A stretch of DNA of 64,000 nt, taken from the NCBI RefSeq assembly GCF_000214665.1, contig NC_015572.1, positions 3,596,001 through 3,660,000 of the forward strand, read 5' to 3'. Shown here piece after piece: positions 5,957 through 25,142 of this stretch. Every line of letters begins with the position of its first letter. The first letter of the stretch is position 1. The notes below the pieces were generated by a model. The model saw only the letters and a program-made list of their open reading frames with translations. It ran no database searches and was not told the origin of the DNA. The stretch comes from Methylomonas methanica MC09 (lineage in GTDB: Bacteria > Pseudomonadota > Gammaproteobacteria > Methylococcales > Methylomonadaceae). The position numbers were made by a program, and so were the translations under genes.

Positions 5957-7486
5957 CTAATGCCATTCCAAACGGTACAGATCGACACGGCGTTTGGACA
6001 AATTTTGGGACGCCCCACGGGTACGGGCCTGTTTTAACAGCTCCAGATTGACATCCGCAATCAGCGTCATTTCCGTATTAGGCGTAGCCTCGGCCAATAT
6101 GGCGTCATGCGGAAAAGCAAAATCGCTGGGGCTGAAAATGGCCGCTTGCGAGTACTGAATATCCATGTTTTCGGCATGCGGCAAATTGCCGACACTGCCG
6201 CCGATGGCGACAAAGCATTCGTTTTCGATGGCGCGTGCCTGGGAGCAATACCGCACCCGCTGATACGCATTTTTGGTGTCGGTCCAGAACGGTACAAACA
6301 ATATCTGCGCGCCTTGCAGCGCGGCCAATCGGGCCAGTTCCGGGAATTCCGCGTCATAGCTGATCAAGATGGCGATTTTGCCGCAATCGGTATCGAACAC
6401 TTTCAGCGCATCGCCGCCTTGCACCCCCCAATAGGCGACCTCGTCGACAGTGATATGGATTTTATATTGCGCCTCGAAGGTGCCGTCCCGGCGCAGCAGC
6501 CAGGAGACGTTGTAGAGTTCCTTGTTGCTGTACTCCGGCATGCTGCCGGCGATGATGTTGATATTGTAGGACATGGCCATTTCCAACAGACCTTCCCGTA
6601 TATCCCGGCTGAAACCCGCCAAGGCACGGATAGCGTCCGCCGGGTTCTTATCGTTGAACAAGCCCATCAACGGCGCGCTGATGTACTCCGGAAACAACAC
6701 AAAATCGGCGTTGTAGCCGGCCACCGCATCGATGAAAAACTCGGCGTGTTTCAGCAACACCTCCACGCTGGCCAAGGGCCGCATCTGCCATTGCACCACC
6801 CCCAACCTGATCAGGCTTTTTAAGTCGCCCAGCTCGGGGGTTTTATCCACATAATCGAGATTGATCCATTCCAGCAGGGTGGCATAACCATGCGAATCGC
6901 CGTCCACCGGCAAATAACCGGTCAGTAACTTACGTACGTGGAAACCGTTGGCCATTTGAAACGACAACACAGGATCGAAAATTTCCCGGCTCTTGACCTG
7001 CTCTATGTAACGCACCGGCGTGAGGCTATCGGCATAGTTGGCATATCCCGGGATACGTCCGCCGGCAATGAAACGGCGTAAATTGAAATTGCGGCATAAT
7101 TCCTTGCGGGCGTCGTATAAACGCCTGCCCAAGCGCAGCCCTCTGAATTTTGGGTCAACGAAAATATCCACCCCGTACAGAGTGTCGCCGTCCAAAGTGT
7201 GGTGGGTCAAATAACCGCCGCCGGTGATTTGCGCATAGGTATGGTTGTCGCCGAACTGCGCATAATCCACGATCATGCTCAGCGCCGCCGCCACCAGCAC
7301 GCCGTTATCTTCGATGCCGATCTGGCCTTCCGGAAAGCGGGTGACTTGCGCGAGGTATTGTTCCTGCTTCCACGCGCCGCCGAGGTTGTTGTAGACCCTG
7401 TCCATAATCTCGGCGATTTGCGGGTAATCCTCGGCGGTTAAATGCCGTAACAACAGCTTATGTTTCTTACTCTTATCTTTTTTCAT
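5957..7486 (-). CDS. GNAT acetyltransferase / carbon-nitrogen hydrolase fusion
   Basis: The start is placed at the ATG at 7486 (MKKDKSKKHKLLLRHLT), giving 509 residues; the longer open frame runs into the neighbouring transposon end. Residues about 10-200 form a GNAT domain ([17 protein letters not shown] is the acetyl-CoA loop). Residues about 225-509 form a nitrilase-superfamily domain. Its catalytic Glu (FPEY, about 268) and Lys (QYKIH, about 343) are present. The position that should be the catalytic Cys in the usual ICYD motif reads ISYD, with Ser at about 376. This two-domain architecture is known (for example Bacillus YhcX), but its substrate is not. The Ser may mean altered or lost amidase activity. 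Confidence 0.85.
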   Translation of the reverse strand: MKKDKSKKHKLLLRHLTAEDYPQIAEIMDRVYNNLGGAWKQEQYLAQVTRFPEGQIGIEDNGVLVAAALSMIVDYAQFGDNHTYAQITGGGYLTHHTLDGDTLYGVDIFVDPKFRGLRLGRRLYDARKELCRNFNLRRFIAGGRIPGYANYADSLTPVRYIEQVKSREIFDPVLSFQMANGFHVRKLLTGYLPVDGDSHGYATLLEWINLDYVDKTPELGDLKSLIRLGVVQWQMRPLASVEVLLKHAEFFIDAVAGYNADFVLFPEYISAPLMGLFNDKNPADAIRALAGFSRDIREGLLEMAMSYNINIIAGSMPEYSNKELYNVSWLLRRDGTFEAQYKIHITVDEVAYWGVQGGDALKVFDTDCGKIAILISYDAEFPELARLAALQGAQILFVPFWTDTKNAYQRVRYCSQARAIENECFVAIGGSVGNLPHAENMDIQYSQAAIFSPSDFAFPHDAILAEATPNTEMTLIADVNLELLKQARTRGASQNLSKRRVDLYRLEWH

Positions 7487-7563
7487 GCAGATAGTCCCAC
7501 CAGAAAAATAAGCTGTTATGGCGGTTTTTTGCCTCGGGGTCAATGAATTGGTTCGTTCCCGGG

Positions 7564-7691
7564 TGTCGGATCTCATAATTAATGAAATACCGAATTCTTC
7601 TATTTTCAACGAGTTATATAAATTATGAGATTTTGATTTTAGTAAAAAAATCTCATAATTCGTTTTCCAAATCAGAAAAAATCTCACAATT
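7564..7691. repeat. Left end of the element with repeated TCTCATAATT motifs
   Basis: Copies lie at 7571-7580 (direct), 7621-7630 (inverted), 7651-7660 (direct) and 7682-7691 (direct, TCTCACAATT). The outermost copy starts 7 bases inside the terminus, exactly as in the right end. Confidence 0.85.
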
Positions 7692-7743
7692 CATGAAACA
7701 AAAATCTTCCTGAAGATAAAAAATCAATCCTTATGGTATGGCC

Positions 7744-8349
7744 TTATGAGTTTGCCAATACAAGCCATGTCCAAGTAACTCCTGCCGCCTTATTTCTTGG
7801 TTGCACAGATTCGGCTGATCGTTTGGCGAGAACTTTTAAATTGCTTTGACAAGCGAGATAAACCGTTTCCTCAACGGTTGCAGGGAAACATTCTCGGTCT
7901 AATGATCCTGGTCCATGACGTATGGACATGATGAGTCGTCCATATCGTGAAAGAAGTTTAGACATATTCGTCATGGAAATTTGTCGTTCTTCGGGCGTAA
8001 GATGCTGCCACACCGCAATAAGTAGCACTAGATCAAATGTTCCTCGGCTTTCTAGTGCTTGATGTAAATGCGGAAGGCTGTCGTCTATCCACTGAACCAA
8101 AGAAGAAGGGTGTAAAAGCCTACCGGCTTTGCGAAATTGTTCTACGGGTTCAACCGCAGTTAATCTATGACCGTGCGAAGCAAGCCAAGCAACGTCACGA
8201 CCAGTTCCTGCGCCAATATCGATGATCCGAGATGGCTCCCTAGGCAAGAAATCTAGAACGTGTGCAAGAACGTCAGTAGCAGATATGGCTTCAAATGCAG
8301 GAATGAGGCGTTCCGCGTCAACAGTGTATCCGCTGAGACTATTGCTCAT
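7744..8349 (-). CDS. Class I SAM-dependent methyltransferase (transposon cargo)
   Basis: The 201-residue protein has the Rossmann motif I DIGAGTGRD near residue 43, an acidic motif II position (TAVEP near 65), a post-motif segment FDLVLLIAVWQHL near 105 and LLSRYGRLIMSIRHG near 135. This is the layout of small stand-alone class I methyltransferases of the Methyltransf_11/TehB type. It has no target-recognition domain, so small-molecule or peptide methylation is likelier than DNA methylation. It is the only gene in the element, with its start 32 bases inside the innermost right-end repeat. Base composition and codon use are more AT-rich than in flanking genes, which agrees with transfer. The substrate is unknown. 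Confidence 0.85.
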   Translation of the reverse strand: MSNSLSGYTVDAERLIPAFEAISATDVLAHVLDFLPREPSRIIDIGAGTGRDVAWLASHGHRLTAVEPVEQFRKAGRLLHPSSLVQWIDDSLPHLHQALESRGTFDLVLLIAVWQHLTPEERQISMTNMSKLLSRYGRLIMSIRHGPGSLDRECFPATVEETVYLACQSNLKVLAKRSAESVQPRNKAAGVTWTWLVLANS

Positions 8350-8380
8350 TAAATACCGTGCCCTTTATTACTGACTAATA

Positions 8381-8439
8381 AATTTTGAGATTTCATTTCA
8401 CAATTGTGAGATTTTTTTCATTAATTATGAGATCTGACA
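8381..8439. repeat. Right end of the element with three phased motifs
   Basis: AATTTTGAGA (8381), AATTGTGAGA (8402) and AATTATGAGA (8423) are spaced exactly 21 bases apart, about two helical turns. The last ends 7 bases before the GACA terminus. Regular phasing like this is typical of transposase binding sites in Tn7/Tn5053-type ends. Confidence 0.85.
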
Positions 8440-8474
8440 CCGGGTATGCCCGCCAAACAAGCCTAACCCGGAAA

Positions 8475-8597: not shown

Positions 8598-10115
8598 ATG
8601 CATTCCGACGATTTCAAACTGACATCCAGCGCCGTGATACTCGCCGCCCTGTTACTGGCAGCGACCGACACCAAAGCCGCCAATAGAGCGGAAACGCCGG
8701 AGTTCTGGTTGGAAACCGGTGCAAAAAACCTTCGCGAAGCCGAACACCTCAACCCCAACGAACGATACGCCAAAAACGTCATTTTGTTTGTCGGCGACGG
8801 CATGGGCATTTCCACCATCACCGCAGCGCGTATTTTGGAAGGCCAATCCAAACCGGACAACCGGGGCGGCGAGGAGAATTCCCTCAGTTTCGAGCAGTTC
8901 CCTTATCTGGCTCTGTCCAAAACCTACAGTGTCAATCAGCAAACACCGGATTCGGCGCCCACTATGACCGCGATTATCAGCGGCGTTAAAACCAATGACG
9001 GCGAGTTGTCGGTCGGCATGGACGTGTCCCGCCAGGAAAAAGATGCCTTCGTCATCAATGCCCACAAAGTGAAAACCTTGTTGGAGCAGGCTGAAGAACA
9101 TGGACTGTCGACCGGCATCGTCACCACCGCCCGTATTACCCACGCCACCCCGGCGGCCTGTTACGCGCATACCTCCGAGCGCGATTGGGAGTCCGACGCC
9201 AATCTACCGGCCGACGCCACGGTACACGATATCGCCAGACAATTATTGGAATTCCCCTACGGCAATGGCCTGGAAGTAGCGATGGGCGGCGGCCGCAGCA
9301 TGTTTTTACCCAACACCACGCCCGACCCGGAAGACGCCGGCAAATTCGGCAACCGGAAAGACGGCCTGGATTTAACCCAGCAGTGGCTGGGCCAATCGAT
9401 GAGATCGGCTTACGTCTACGACAAAAACGGCTTCGATGCCGTGGATCCGAAATACACCGACCATTTGCTGGGACTGTTCGAGCGGTCGCACATGGAATAC
9501 GAATACGACCGCCCGGGCGATAGCGGCGGCGAACCGTCTTTGACCGAAATGACCGAAAAAGCCATCGAGATTCTGTCCAAAAACCGCAAGGGTTATGTGC
9601 TGATGGTAGAAGCGGGCCGTATCGACCATGCCCACCACGCCGGCAATGCCTTTCGAGCCTTGACCGAAACCGTGGAATTATCTAATGCCGTACGCACGGC
9701 CGTGGCAAAAACCAACGCCAAAGACACGCTGATCGTAGTTACCGCCGACCACAGCCATACGTTTACCATTGCCGGTTATCCGCAACGCGGCAACCCCATT
9801 CTGGGCTTGGTCAAACATCCCGGTGCCGCCGACTATGCCAAAGACAGCAACGGCCTACCCTTTACCACGTTGGGATATGCCAACGGTCCCGGCTACCGAG
9901 GCCCGAACCCGCGGGCGGATTTAACCGGCATCGACACGGCGCATCCCGATTTTCTGCAGGAAGCGGCCATTCCCTTGCATGACGAAACCCACGCTGCAGA
10001 AGACGTGGCGATTTTTGCCCAAGGCCCCAAAGCCCATTTGTTCCATGGCATTCAGGAACAAAGCTATATTTACCAAGTCATGGCCAAAGCGCTCAAATTC
10101 AGGCCAGGGCAATAA
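8598..10115 (+). CDS. Alkaline phosphatase (PhoA family)
   Basis: The start is placed at the ATG at 8598 because it follows a GAGGA site and opens a signal peptide (ending TKA); an upstream ATG at 8547 would bury that signal. The 505-residue exported enzyme hydrolyses phosphate monoesters. The metal site motif GDGMG (near residue 58), the nucleophile Ser in DSAPTMTA (near 120), VEAGRIDHAHH (near 335) and VTADHSHTF (near 382) are all present, so it should be active with two zinc and one magnesium ion. Pho-box-like sites lie just upstream. The transposon's right end is 158 bases before the start and leaves those sites intact. Confidence 0.95.
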   Translation: MHSDDFKLTSSAVILAALLLAATDTKAANRAETPEFWLETGAKNLREAEHLNPNERYAKNVILFVGDGMGISTITAARILEGQSKPDNRGGEENSLSFEQFPYLALSKTYSVNQQTPDSAPTMTAIISGVKTNDGELSVGMDVSRQEKDAFVINAHKVKTLLEQAEEHGLSTGIVTTARITHATPAACYAHTSERDWESDANLPADATVHDIARQLLEFPYGNGLEVAMGGGRSMFLPNTTPDPEDAGKFGNRKDGLDLTQQWLGQSMRSAYVYDKNGFDAVDPKYTDHLLGLFERSHMEYEYDRPGDSGGEPSLTEMTEKAIEILSKNRKGYVLMVEAGRIDHAHHAGNAFRALTETVELSNAVRTAVAKTNAKDTLIVVTADHSHTFTIAGYPQRGNPILGLVKHPGAADYAKDSNGLPFTTLGYANGPGYRGPNPRADLTGIDTAHPDFLQEAAIPLHDETHAAEDVAIFAQGPKAHLFHGIQEQSYIYQVMAKALKFRPGQ

Positions 10116-10154: not shown

Positions 10155-10895
10155 TTGACCGTGACCGTGACCGTAAAACATTCAACTTTGCCGGGCTTGG
10201 TGCTGGCACTATGCTTAAGCGCCTGCACTACAACCCAGACACATCCGACAAAACCTCTGCGCGTCGACTTACCTTTACCCGACATCGCCGCAGAGTTTGA
10301 AACCCGTATCGAACGATTGGACTCGTCAAGCGACGCTCACGAACCGCAACGCTATCGGTGGCGCTTTTATCGTTCCGCCAAGCGGATAGAAACTCATCTG
10401 TTACCGGATAACAGCGGCGAAAGCTGGACTCAATTGCCCGACGGCGATATCGCCTACCAAAGACTGTTTCATACCCAAAAACAACTGATCGATTATCTGC
10501 CCGGCGATTTGAAAGCCATCGGCAGCCAACCGAACTGGCTTAGGCTTGCTACGCTGATTAACGCGGATCATCTGGAAAACTTCGTAGCGCAAAGTTCCGA
10601 TACTATACTGGGTCGCTCCGTTACCCACTACACCGATGACACCCGCAGCAATCCCGTTGAATTGGCTTGGCTGGAGGCGGAACAATTACCGGCCCTGCTG
10701 CGCAGACGTGGGCATGGACACACCGTGACTACGCGCCTGATCGCCGTGTACCGCCTTGACGACGCCCCGTGGGAACGGCCCAATTCAGACGCGTATCAAA
10801 CAACCGATTTTGCCGATCTGGGCGACAAGGAAAATAATGCCTTTATCAAAAGCATTTTGCCGCAATTAAAAGGCACTCAAAGCCACGAACATTAA
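10155..10895 (+). CDS. Putative lipoprotein of unknown function
   Basis: The protein has about 246 residues with a lipobox LSAC near residue 22, so it is probably anchored in the outer membrane. The start is uncertain: TTG at 10155 or GTG at 10161 or 10167. All three fall in a small GACCGT triplicate repeat, with no strong ribosome binding site. The body reads like a periplasmic globular domain with many Arg and Asp residues (ETRIERLDSSS, RYRWRFYRSAKRIETHLLP), and I do not recognise a family. It follows the alkaline phosphatase by 40 bases without a terminator, so the two are probably co-transcribed. Confidence 0.7.
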   Translation: MTVTVTVKHSTLPGLVLALCLSACTTTQTHPTKPLRVDLPLPDIAAEFETRIERLDSSSDAHEPQRYRWRFYRSAKRIETHLLPDNSGESWTQLPDGDIAYQRLFHTQKQLIDYLPGDLKAIGSQPNWLRLATLINADHLENFVAQSSDTILGRSVTHYTDDTRSNPVELAWLEAEQLPALLRRRGHGHTVTTRLIAVYRLDDAPWERPNSDAYQTTDFADLGDKENNAFIKSILPQLKGTQSHEH

Positions 10896-10926
10896 TGCCG
10901 CCTCGGTTAGCACAAATAACCGCGGT

Positions 10927-11670
10927 TCATTGCGCCCCTTGCTCTATCCAGGTTTTCACGATAGCCACATCCGCTTCCGAGAGCCGGTGACTGTCGGCCA
11001 TCGGCATATCAGTCCGGTTACCCGAAATGATGGCCAGCAACGGACTTTCAGTACTCTGTCCGGGCACAACCGAAGGCGCTGCGGGTTTGAAAAAATCCTG
11101 ACGTTGGTCGGCCCGAAAATCCGCCCATTGCTTATTTGGGCCATGGCAGGCAACGCAATGTTGCTGAAAAATCGGATAAACATCGTCCCAGAGCACATGG
11201 CTATCTGGCTTGGGTTCGGCAGCTTCAGCCATGGCCGGCGGCTGTTGTTCGATAGCTTGCCGGCTTTTAGCCTGGAAACCTCGCCTGGGCCGCTCGACCT
11301 CGACAACGTCCCGATTAGCCAGCCAGGCAAATCCGATACACAACGCAGCGAAAACCCCTATCACCCAAACCGCACTGCGCACCAGCGAAGGCTGGGGACT
11401 TTTCACCAATCCGCAGCGCTTGCCGATAACCGTCACCACCCAATTCCAATGCAGCGCTAAATGCACCACCAGCACCACCATAAGCCCAATGCTGATCCAA
11501 AAGTGCACATCGCCCCATTCATGGCGGCTCAACCCCCACAACGCATGGCTTTTGTTAGAGCCTGGCGGCAACGGAAAACGTAACAAATATCCGGTAGCCA
11601 ACATGCCCAAAAACAGTAATGTGGCGATCAAATCGATAATGATGTTTACAGCGGTTCGGTTTGCGCTCAT
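10927..11670 (-). CDS. DUF4405 membrane protein fused to a cytochrome c domain
   Basis: The ATG at 11670 is chosen because GTGAG precedes it at the right distance; a GTG at 11682 is the alternative. Residues 1-85 form two or three membrane spans with conserved His residues (SRHEWGDVHFW and HLALHWNW), as in DUF4405 cytochrome-b-like proteins. A third hydrophobic segment lies near 100-120. The periplasmic C-terminal part carries a single c-type heme motif CVACHG (about residue 175) in a PSD1/planctomycete-like cytochrome context with VVPGQSTESPLL. It probably passes electrons between the membrane and the periplasm. The donor and acceptor are unknown. Confidence 0.8.
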   Translation of the reverse strand: MSANRTAVNIIIDLIATLLFLGMLATGYLLRFPLPPGSNKSHALWGLSRHEWGDVHFWISIGLMVVLVVHLALHWNWVVTVIGKRCGLVKSPQPSLVRSAVWVIGVFAALCIGFAWLANRDVVEVERPRRGFQAKSRQAIEQQPPAMAEAAEPKPDSHVLWDDVYPIFQQHCVACHGPNKQWADFRADQRQDFFKPAAPSVVPGQSTESPLLAIISGNRTDMPMADSHRLSEADVAIVKTWIEQGAQ

Positions 11671-11764
11671 GATAAATCTCACATTGGAAAGTCCCCGAAA
11701 ACTATCTCACAGATACGCTGTAAACGGTTAATGTCCAGCTACTGCAACGGTCTAAGCCACACTA

Positions 11765-11882
11765 TTATTAACCCGGCCCTTAAATACCCTCCATTCGTCA
11801 TTCCAGAGAAAGCGGGAATCCTTTGCATCCACTGGGCTCCCGCTTTCGCGGGCGCGACGATATTCAAGGGCCGGGTTAATAA
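11765..11882. repeat. 118-bp palindromic repeat element
   Basis: The outer arms (11765-11785 and 11862-11882) are inverted copies with one mismatch, TTATTAACCCGGCCCTT and its complement. Inside lies a second, looser pair based on CATTCxxxxGAAAGCGGGAATCC and CCCGCTTTCGCGGG, the dispersed repeat type seen in many proteobacterial genomes. It encodes nothing. It looks like a REP/MITE-type element between a cytochrome gene and a small-protein gene. No clear target duplication is visible. Confidence 0.75.
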
Positions 11883-11946
11883 CTTCATAGCCGTTTGCAA
11901 CGTTGTTTACCCCTGGTTAAACGAAAAAGTGCGGGCTCATCCACGC

Positions 11947-11976
11947 ATGCAACAACCGTAATCCCGGTTGTTGCAT
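11947..11976 (-). terminator. Hairpin after the Gly/Met-rich gene
   Basis: A perfect 12-bp inverted repeat (ATGCAACAACCG / CGGTTGTTGCAT) with a 6-base loop lies 13 bases beyond the stop of the minus-strand gene. There is no T-run, so termination may be factor-assisted. Confidence 0.6.
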
Positions 11977-11988
11977 GGCAAATTCAGC

Positions 11989-12360
11989 TTATTGACCCGG
12001 CAGCATTTGTTGTGTTCGGTTCTGCTCCTGATTCATTTCCCGAAATTGCTGTTGACCGCCATTCTGATATTGGTCCGGGCTCATTTGCCGCATTCGATTC
12101 TGCTCCTGATTCATCTCCCGGAACTGCTGTTGGCTGCCGTCCTGATATTGCCCCGGCGCTTGCTGATGCTGGCGCAGACGCGTGCGATCGCGGTCCATAT
12201 CGCCGAAACCGCCTTGCCCCATGCCCATACTCTGCCCCCCTCCCATGCCTTGACCCTGCATGCGACCGCCTCCACCGCCGCCTCCCATGCCTTTGGCTTG
12301 GGTATTCAGAGCGACGCCTGCCAACAAGATAAAAACCAAACTCACTCGTGACTTTTTCAT
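11989..12360 (-). CDS. Secreted Gly/Met/Gln-rich repeat protein
   Basis: The ATG at 12360 has a GAGGAAA site and opens a signal peptide (ending TQA), giving 123 residues. The mature protein starts with a Gly/Met-rich stretch (GMGGGGGGG, GMGGGQSMGMGQG). It then has two copies of a 26-residue unit containing QQQFREMNQEQNR and ends PGQ. The abundant Met residues could bind copper(I), but that is inference. The adjacent upstream gene encodes a cytochrome c'-like protein 40 bases away, so they are probably one operon. I do not recognise a family. Confidence 0.7.
   Translation of the reverse strand: MKKSRVSLVFILLAGVALNTQAKGMGGGGGGGRMQGQGMGGGQSMGMGQGGFGDMDRDRTRLRQHQQAPGQYQDGSQQQFREMNQEQNRMRQMSPDQYQNGGQQQFREMNQEQNRTQQMLPGQ
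11997..12152. repeat. Two tandem 78-bp units in coding sequence
   Basis: Units start at 11997 and 12075, and a partial third starts at 12153, each with CCGG. They differ by scattered substitutions that mostly keep the amino acids, so the duplication has been kept in frame under selection. Confidence 0.8.
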
Positions 12361-12400
12361 GACTATTTTCCTCATATAATTAAGCAATGACCGCCGCCAT

Positions 12401-12889
12401 TCATTGTTTTTGCTGTGGTTGAATAAGCTGAATCTGATACGCCTCATGGCATACCGCACAAGTGCTCAGAGTGGTGCTGAGTTGCTGTAAGCTATGTTTG
12501 GTATCCTTTCTGGATTCCGCATCGGCGGCGATGCGATCGAAATCCTGATGAACGGCCATACCCAGCTGCATAAAAGCCGGCGGCAAAACGTCGTGCAGAT
12601 GATTCTCGGCCTTATGCCCCATGTGCATCCCCAAGGCGCTTGCCTGACGCGCAACTGCCGCCATGTCGTCCGCAGCCAGCGCGGCAAGCAGGGTTTGCGT
12701 GCCGGATAACAGAACCCGCATCTCGCCCAAGACATGCGCCCGCTGGGCCGCTGTCAATTCAATGACCTGCCGCCCGTCAGCCGCATCGGCCCACACGGTT
12801 CCATTGATCAAGGCTAATGCAAAGCTCAATCCCGCCAGTGCGGATTTTTGCGGTCGGACGAACAATCCCGTTAAGATGCTGCTTTTCAT
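12401..12889 (-). CDS. Cytochrome c'-like protein
   Basis: The 162-residue protein has an N-terminal signal peptide (hydrophobic segment about 17-33, ending VWA). It is otherwise helical and has a single heme motif CAVCH about 20 residues before the C-terminus, as in cytochrome c' type four-helix bundles. Several His and Met residues (LGMHMGHKAENHLHDVL, about residues 85-105) could bind metal. Cytochromes c' bind NO or act as electron carriers; which applies here is not visible. It shares an operon with the Gly/Met-rich protein downstream and is divergent from the two-component system gene. Confidence 0.75.
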   Translation of the reverse strand: MKSSILTGLFVRPQKSALAGLSFALALINGTVWADAADGRQVIELTAAQRAHVLGEMRVLLSGTQTLLAALAADDMAAVARQASALGMHMGHKAENHLHDVLPPAFMQLGMAVHQDFDRIAADAESRKDTKHSLQQLSTTLSTCAVCHEAYQIQLIQPQQKQ

Positions 12890-13035
12890 AATAAAGTCTC
12901 ATATATTAGATTTTATTAATATATTAGCAATAGAATGTTTCCAGCTGTTTTCCAAGCTGTAACAATATGTTTCAAATTGTTACAAATGACCCGGTTTGCC
13001 CTGCCGCCATTAACAACTCCAAAATTAATAAATCC

Positions 13036-13755
13036 ATGCACAAATCTGAAGACACACAACGCATCCTTATCGTGGACGACGATTGCGCTCTGCGGGAATT
13101 GGTAACGGATTACCTGAGCATGAGCGGTTTTTTGGTCTTTACAGCCGGCGACGGCCAAAGCATGCGCGCCGTGTTAAACGAACACAGCGTGGACTTGGTG
13201 GTAATGGATCTGATGCTACCGGGCGAGGACGGGCTGAGCCTATTGCGCTGGCTACGCGAACAGCACGGCCCACCGGTGATTATCGTATCCGCGCGCGGCG
13301 ACGAAGTAGACAGGGTAGTCGGACTGGAAATGGGCGCGGACGATTATCTGGCCAAGCCCTTCGGGCCGCGCGAACTACTGGCCCGCATTCGCGCGGTAAT
13401 ACGCCGTAGTAGCGAACCGGAGACTGGCGTAGAGGAGAAGGTGTTAGCGTTCGGCCCGTTTCGCCTGCATCTCAACAGCCATGTCATGAGCCGCGACGGC
13501 GCCGAAGTGCCGCTGACCTTCGGGGAGTTCAATTTGTTGCGGGTATTTCTGGAACATGCCAACCAAGTGCTGTCGCGCGACCACCTGATCAGCCTGTTGA
13601 AAGGCTACGAACGGTCGCCGTACGACCGTAGTATCGATGTGCGGGTAACCCGCCTGCGGCGCAAGATAGAACCCAAACCGGACAGTCCCGTTTATCTGCG
13701 CACAGTCTGGGGCGAAGGCTACTTGTTCACGCCAAGGGGCGATGAAAACCCATGA
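13036..13755 (+). CDS. OmpR-family response regulator
   Basis: The ATG at 13036 is chosen because it places the receiver domain near the N-terminus (ILIVDDD at residue 10); an ATG at 12967 is possible, and neither has a strong ribosome binding site. The receiver domain (residues 8-120) has the phosphorylation site in LVVMDLMLPGEDG (Asp about 57) and the Lys in YLAKPFGPREL. The C-terminal winged-helix domain (about 140-235) has the OmpR/PhoB pattern (LTFGEFNLLRVF, RSIDVRVTRLRRKIE). It overlaps its kinase gene by ATGA. The divergent cytochrome operon is a plausible target. Confidence 0.92.
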   Translation: MHKSEDTQRILIVDDDCALRELVTDYLSMSGFLVFTAGDGQSMRAVLNEHSVDLVVMDLMLPGEDGLSLLRWLREQHGPPVIIVSARGDEVDRVVGLEMGADDYLAKPFGPRELLARIRAVIRRSSEPETGVEEKVLAFGPFRLHLNSHVMSRDGAEVPLTFGEFNLLRVFLEHANQVLSRDHLISLLKGYERSPYDRSIDVRVTRLRRKIEPKPDSPVYLRTVWGEGYLFTPRGDENP

Positions 13756-25055: not shown

Positions 25056-25142
25056 CGTAGGTTGGGTTAGGCATTAGCCGTAACCCAACACGTTGGCCTT
25101 CGATTGTTGAATTTAACTCTAATCGAGCGAACCTAACCTACG
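25056..25142. repeat. Palindromic dispersed repeat (GTAGGTTGGGTTAGG type)
   Basis: CGTAGGTTGGGTTAGG starts the element and CCTAACCTACG closes it, with an inner GTAACCCAAC. This class of non-coding dispersed repeat is common in proteobacterial and cyanobacterial intergenic DNA. Confidence 0.65.

Follow-up and report, generated by a model that had tools for sequence, protein, structure and literature searches.

An 876-bp transposase-less element with Tn7-like ends in Methylomonas methanica MC09, probably a passenger of a methanotroph Tn7-like family

Main finding

The single-contig genome (5.05 Mb) of Methylomonas methanica MC09 contains, within the 64,000-nt stretch analysed as a whole (the window, C1:3596001-3660000), an element that encodes a methyltransferase and no transposase between two complete Tn7-type ends. 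The same chromosome carries a full Tn7-like element (E1) with four open tns genes and matching ends, and sister passengers as well as family members adjoining gyrB are present in related genomes. The element is best explained as a natural mini-Tn7, i.e. a transposase-less passenger of a methanotroph Tn7-like family that is mobilised in trans (probability roughly 0.8). According to the proposed mechanism, the TnsB of a full element (e.g. E1) would bind the motif copies in the ends A and B of the mini element, TnsA and TnsB would cut it out, and TnsC together with a target selector would place it at its new site under generation of the 5-bp duplication; the methyltransferase would travel as cargo and might confer some benefit. 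Recognition of the family's gyrB home site presumably falls to the TniQ/TnsD protein of 618 aa, and the mini element would have used another, non-gyrB site.

Structure of the mini element

A sequence-only reading of this DNA had described an 876-bp element with inverted ends, a perfect CCGGG on both sides, right-end motif copies 21 bases apart and a methyltransferase as its only gene, all of which was borne out by direct inspection (see Table 1): Position 7564 opens TGTCGGATCTCATAATT, the inverted partner closes at 8439, and CCGGG borders both as a perfect 5-bp target-site duplication flanking TGTC...GACA. With the duplication counted in, the inverted ends (7559-7587 and 8416-8444) comprise 29 nt and are 93% complementary. 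The motif ATCTCAYAATT starts 6 bases inside either terminus; end A holds four copies (direct at +6, +86 and +117, inverted at +57), and end B holds three (+6, +27 and +48; spacings of exactly 21 and 21) plus one weaker, overlapping match at +34. This asymmetry, with spread copies in end A and close ones in end B, was seen again in other genomes. Terminal TGT...ACA, asymmetric arrays of TnsB-site-like repeats and a 5-bp duplication, as found in the Tn7-like family, are thereby all present in the mini element. It lies away from the family's home site downstream of gyrB, between two oppositely reading genes; such a home site is not essential for a Tn7-like element, because Tn7 has a second pathway according to the part of the source available (PMC11406308).

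Table 1. Features of the window and elements of the family with both ends on one contig (window positions unless prefixed with C1; both mini-element ends were among the profile training sequences, which inflates their E-values)
Feature	Position	Strand	Length	tns genes	Basis or content
Left neighbour	5957..7486	-	509 aa		looks like GNAT + nitrilase fusion (by eye)
Left target-site duplication	7559..7563	.	5 bp		CCGGG, direct read
Mini element	7564..8439		876 bp	without	methyltransferase
End A, Tn7 left-end-like, terminal TGTCGG	7564..7691	+			motif copies, profile match E=2e-28 (inflated)
End A motif copies	7570-7580 (+), 7621-7631 (-), 7650-7660 (+), 7681-7691 (+)
Predicted class I SAM-dependent methyltransferase, sole gene of the element	7744..8349	-	201 aa		ORF, Pfam domain
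End B, Tn7 right-end-like, terminal TGTCAG	8381..8439	-			motif copies, profile match E=8.3e-17 (inflated)
End B motif copies, 21 bp apart	8433-8423, 8412-8402, 8391-8381	-
Right target-site duplication	8440..8444	.	5 bp		CCGGG, direct read
Right neighbour	8598..10115	+			looks like alkaline phosphatase (by eye)
E1	C1:38886-56140		17,255 bp	with	see text
E2 (adjoins E1)	C1:56145-65287		9.1 kb	without	Lamassu LmuB, LmuC
G110 element (Methylobacter tundripaludum SV96)			23.9 kb	with
G151:C1 element (Methylomonas fluvii EbB)			39.9 kb	with
G151:C2 element (Methylomonas fluvii EbB)			6.8 kb	without	Gabija GajA, GajB
G003:C30 element			1.8 kb	without	one 380-aa gene, no Pfam or PADLOC match
G028 element			6.6 kb	without	iron alcohol dehydrogenase, hydrolase
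G147 element			13.3 kb	without	RND pump, glycosidase
G129 element			10.4 kb	without	ABC transporter gene, DUF4238
G014 element			9.2 kb	without	type I restriction genes
G124 element			7.9 kb	without	type I restriction genes

The methyltransferase gene, separated from the innermost repeats by 52 bp at one end and 31 bp at the other, is intact and reads away from end B; no other ORF of 70 aa or more lies fully within the element. The methyltransferase domain scored above the Pfam cut-off, PADLOC returned a match to mad2 (E=6.7e-14, positions 275-424 of 492), and all seven NCBIfam matches stayed far under their cut-offs; the assignment predicted from these profiles reaches only as far as the generic class I fold. 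Full-length relatives number 11 (69-84% identity), the nearest homologue being 84% identical from end to end. Among 151 family and 369 class genomes, the methyltransferase element did not recur (best other match 47% identical). Viral contigs contained no relative of the methyltransferase, and none of its plasmid relatives, spread over 45 records, reached 60% identity (43% for the best among the matches listed). Phages yielded no DNA similar to the element, Rfam yielded no match, and a promoter scan returned 0 sites versus an average of 2.0 in shuffles. An attC-like pattern, searched with one fixed spacing only, matched the window once, at 25083 and not at the element. MITEs are non-coding and occur in high copy number; this identity was rejected, as the element holds an intact gene and is present in one copy in the host genome.

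The partner element E1

Further copies of the ends and a transposase flanked by them, both anticipated by the sequence-only reading, were found on the host chromosome: The 17-mer of the end occurs six times without mismatch in the genome, as three B/A pairs, and E1 shows the motif of the mini element at both of its ends. From end B, E1 is arranged as tnsA, tnsB, tnsC, tniQ, cargo and end A, with the four tns genes at C1:41988-47460. All four tns genes are open and match, respectively, the Pfam models TnsA-like N (PF08722), Mu-transposase C-terminal, TniB and TniQ; an IS630-like DDE gene lies ahead of tnsA. The cargo comprises a dCTPase-model deaminase, a dCTP-deaminase-like protein, ThyX, a PfkB kinase and PDC-S51. 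By eye, neither cas genes nor a resolvase were seen among the E1 ORFs of at least 120 aa. Wherever tnsA and end B were present on one contig (G000, the host, as well as G110, G151 and G141), end B was located on the tnsA side. The catalytic D-D-E with D35E spacing is present in 5/5 translated TnsB of the family (residues chosen by eye), of which the G151 protein has one internal stop.

The solved structure nearest to E1 TnsB is that of Tn6677 (9y7b, E=7.7e-80, 272 bits; Tn7 TnsB 64 bits), and Tn6677 likewise provided the nearest one for E1 TnsC (7ufi, E=4.8e-25). Residues 70-122 of the TniQ protein match the TniQ domain and residues 504-543 an HTH, the latter below threshold; a TniQ of the E1 type was present in 5/61 relatives at E<=1e-60. 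The former placement in the Tn7/Tn5053 group is retained for its Tn7 half, which agrees with the Tn7-type ends and the TnsA-bearing partner. A Tn5053-like identity of the partner was rejected, because E1 possesses TnsA and has its nearest solved relatives in Tn6677; the resolvase that would belong to a tniABQ-res-tniR module as in Tn5053/Tn402 was not seen by eye among the E1 ORFs of at least 120 aa.

Likewise, the former proposal of a transposase-less cassette mobilised in trans is upheld as far as a one-gene element without any Tns match, and cognate TnsA, TnsB, TnsC and TniQ in the same genome, are concerned, with the movement itself being probable. The mover would not have to be E1. No host TnsB other than E1's own reaches 70% identity to the E1 protein. 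End A of the mini element is identical to that of E1 in 96/127 positions, to that of E2 in 89/107 and to that of G155 in 104/129, and end B to those of E1, G158 and G151 in 51/66, 59/62 and 61/66 positions, respectively. As the mini-element ends are not most like those of E1, the mover may have been a lost or foreign relative, or an earlier ancestor of such elements.

Distribution of the family

The exact 17-mer was detected in 18/151 genomes of the host's family and an exact end in 26/311 genomes of the order, all 26 within this family; a stricter end-B pattern matched 13 stretches in a collection of 84,980 species, 11 of them with Methylococcales names. Seven of the 26 end-bearing genomes encode a TnsB with 70% or more identity to that of E1, full-length and stop-free in four. 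Stretches were fetched from 25 of the 26 (all but G167) and revealed 12 elements delimited by two ends on the same contig, three with and nine without tns genes, the latter defined by no match to the E1 Tns proteins at E<=1e-10; the ratio of 3:9 is biased towards short elements, since long ones often leave the contig or the fetched stretch. Methylomonas fluvii EbB (NZ_JACXST010000001.1 and 2.1) repeats the pairing of the host in having one tns element and one passenger. Full tns sets with one end missing on the contig also exist at G141:C220 and G155:C105, outside the 12. Partial or broken tns genes lie at undelimited loci of G135, G003:C51, G079 (TnsA), G160 (TnsA) and G027 (TniQ pieces, which adjoin an end A without its terminus).

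A perfect 5-bp duplication flanks 8/12 elements: all three with tns genes (TCGTT, ATACC and CCGAC) and 5/9 without, where the sequences are all different (CCGGG in the mini element, GCAGC in G147, and AAAAA, CTAAG and CTTGC). The last base of the right duplication copy of E1 is the first base of E2. Among the counted passengers, weak ends are present in G014 (both), G124 (A) and G147 (B, E=0.03), the last of which was kept because its duplication matches. Ends without a full partner end in the fetched stretch, or at a contig end, were excluded from the 12 (G003 C8, C13 and C51 (two); G025; G027; G028 C1:1800139; G029; G032; G055; G061; G079 (two); G107; G135 (two); G141 (three); G155 (three); G157 (two); G158 (two); G159; G160 (two); G167; G173; the Methylomonas DH-1 plasmid; L014; L021); G167 and G155:C31 are known from the search match only.

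Several loci show signs of further rearrangement. E2 appears interrupted by IS3-like transposase genes (L008:7315-8205 and 10583-13230, by eye from the ORF list). At G003:C51 (L098), a truncated tnsB is followed by two copies of end A 2 kb apart (12173 and 14212), a decaying stack. In G025, G032 and G055, which represent two genera, end B has near-identical outer flanks (L046 598, L080 625 and L079 19255), as would result from the spread of a single ancient insertion or of a larger element common to them. The plasmid search for ends returned only an end B in one record, NZ_CP014361.1 of Methylomonas sp. DH-1 (L077:15059), where it faces molybdate and heavy-metal efflux genes; no partner end was found within the 15 kb fetched. 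Seven viral contigs contain the bare 17-mer, four of which gave only a terminal profile match of 18-24 positions, and none of the seven had a Tns match; given these short matches and the 0/7 Tns result, they are treated as unproven carriers.

The gyrB home site

Of 15 gyrB 3' ends within the fetched stretches, 11 are followed by an end of the E1 family 7, 8, 9, 10 or 11 nt past the stop codon (end B in 10 cases, a degenerate B-like end in G014), from which gyrB is concluded to be the home site of this family. The remaining four adjoin an end of a second Tn7-like family (G000, G159 and G160) or of neither family (G107). On the host chromosome, gyrB is directly followed by an element of the second family with other end repeats and a GTTGT duplication (C1:6273-38885; L170, L103, L104 and L007), then by E1 and E2 (boundaries of the stack by eye). 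With the later insertions removed on paper, E1 lies at stop+11 and E2 at stop+10; the two Tn7-like families have the gyrB home site in common. Wadjet JetC/JetD-like genes (by eye) are located just outside E1 within the second-family element (L007:13-2703). Four tns-less elements reside at gyrB (E2, G014, G129 and G124), none with a duplication, and stack deletion or recombination therefore explains them as well as mobilisation in trans. The five tns-less elements away from gyrB, the mini element included, each possess their own duplication.

Origin of the mini element

The foremost rival, which we regard as unlikely, states that a full Tn7-like element inserted at this locus and that an internal deletion then removed its tns genes; movement as an 876-bp unit would not have taken place. 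Such a deletion would leave a CCGGG duplication of the same appearance; decay of tns genes is common in the family, the cognate TnsB being split, truncated or stop-containing in 3/7 genomes (G135, G003 and G151), and the lack of duplications in the four gyrB passengers is as expected from deletion or stack recombination. The mini element itself speaks against this course of events, in that a complete gene lies within a short distance of the innermost repeats on both sides, both ends are complete, and no tns match is left. Moreover, 5/5 duplication-bearing elements away from gyrB are devoid of tns genes, whereas deletion in place should leave some of them full; set against the seven gyrB elements (three with tns), however, this distribution reaches only a p of about 0.16 (one-sided Fisher).

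A mover from another Tn7-like family in the genome, e.g. the second one beside gyrB, is very improbable: Its TnsB (C1:13633-15408), about 35% identical to that of E1, has an unbroken frame in the same chromosome, and its end adjoins gyrB in three genomes, but its ends display a different repeat (GTGCCA...AATTA, by eye), against the mini-element motif at both ends of E1. Chance inverted repeats flanking an ordinary methyltransferase gene are excluded, the probability being practically nil, since AT-rich ends and one host match of the backward-read control at two mismatches (versus six real ones) are outweighed by four exact ends elsewhere in the host chromosome, no exact backward-read match in 151 and in 311 genomes, and the results of a scorer of end and copy positions. 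This scorer assigned the mini-element ends 1.0 and 0.0 mismatch points, and even with the limits relaxed as far as 12 and 10 it detected no end in a simulation of 1.5 Mb, generated by a first-order Markov chain for which the fetched loci served as training set.

An empty site in close strains, which the sequence-only reading had envisaged, did not emerge: When the joined flanks were searched in 36 genomes of the genus besides the host, none matched both flanks and none contained an empty CCGGG site; a single flank was present in each of G158 and G154, the second one being absent from the 1.5 kb fetched per side. The missing empty site, the missing second copy of the methyltransferase element, the lesser resemblance of its ends to those of E1, its position away from gyrB and the promoter scan weigh against the mini-Tn7 interpretation.

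Beyond the mini-Tn7 interpretation of the single element, a two-tier Tn7-like system of the Methylococcales may tentatively be considered, to which we give somewhat less than even odds: Full elements at gyrB would supply the proteins, and much of the cargo would reside in separate transposase-less satellites that share these ends and may be as small as one gene, and that could settle at sites other than gyrB through a second targeting mode. The 12 elements, with the p of about 0.16, are too few to settle this reading.

Significance

The value of the finding lies less in the cargo than in the family, with its many passengers, few full elements and a gyrB site common to two families: Nine passengers, several with known defence systems, stand against three full elements and two contig-limited full tns sets. 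Surveys anchored on the transposase are blind to such elements, and the mobile gene load of Tn7-like systems is therefore probably undercounted. The survey of Tn7-like cargo by Benler et al. 2021 took tnsB as the minimal requirement according to the part available (PMC8649781), so that transposase-less elements fall outside it. In addition, the family offers gyrB as a candidate home site, opens to experiment the question of how site-specific Tn7-like machinery directs satellites to other places, and provides in the 876-bp element a naturally occurring model for building compact delivery elements for methanotrophs.

The former claim that the type was not yet described holds for the family rather than for the kind. 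Transposase-less elements mobilised in trans are not new, as they have been described for Tn5053/Tn402 in the accessible part of PMC7765201; the mini element together with its gyrB-homing family seems undescribed. Trans mobilisation in the Tn7-like branch of E1 was absent among the literature matches listed, which covered few subscription journals, and a gyrB home site of this branch was likewise not found in literature mostly outside subscription journals, which is weak evidence. The main texts of PMC10293859, PMC8649781 and PMC11406308 contain no mention of gyrB, and in one of the papers with co-occurrence of Tn7-like elements and gyrB, the available part treats gyrB as a phylogenetic marker.

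Comparison with known systems

To our knowledge, Tn5053/Tn402 elements have no TnsA. According to the part of the source available, they consist of tniABQ-res-tniR and insert at res sites, and their tni-defective derivatives (Tn6606, class 1 integrons) are moved by tni supplied in trans, for which experimental evidence is cited in the cases of In0 and In2 (PMC7765201). These derivatives resemble the mini element in having ends, cargo and 5-bp repeats without complete transposition genes, but depend on tniABQ, a resolvase and res sites, in contrast to the E1 family with its TnsA and its home site at gyrB. The elements surveyed by Benler et al. 2021 belong to the same broad group as the E1 family and are likewise rich in defence cargo (PMC8649781). 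Tn6677 of the I-F3 branch contains the nearest solved relatives of both TnsB and TnsC of E1, which differs by the lack of visible cas genes (by eye) and by its TniQ of 618 aa. For Tn7, the conserved gene glmS as home site, the two-pathway lifestyle and also a parE-targeting TnsD are described in the accessible part of PMC11406308. The E1 family agrees with Tn7 in TnsA, TnsB and TnsC plus a TniQ-type selector and in a home site at a conserved gene; Tn7 deviates in its end motif, in the use of glmS instead of gyrB and in its only distantly similar TnsB (64 bits, compared with 272 for Tn6677).

Tn7 generates a 5-bp duplication and possesses one end with close tandem sites, the right end beside the tns genes, and one with spread sites; in laboratory mini-Tn7, the ends enclose cargo and tns is supplied in trans. 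We know of no inverted copy in Tn7 such as that in end A. Tn7 and mini-Tn7 share with the family the layout of the ends, with the tandem-site end beside tnsA, as well as the 5-bp duplication. Laboratory mini-Tn7 is artificial, and the mini element of M. methanica would represent its natural form.
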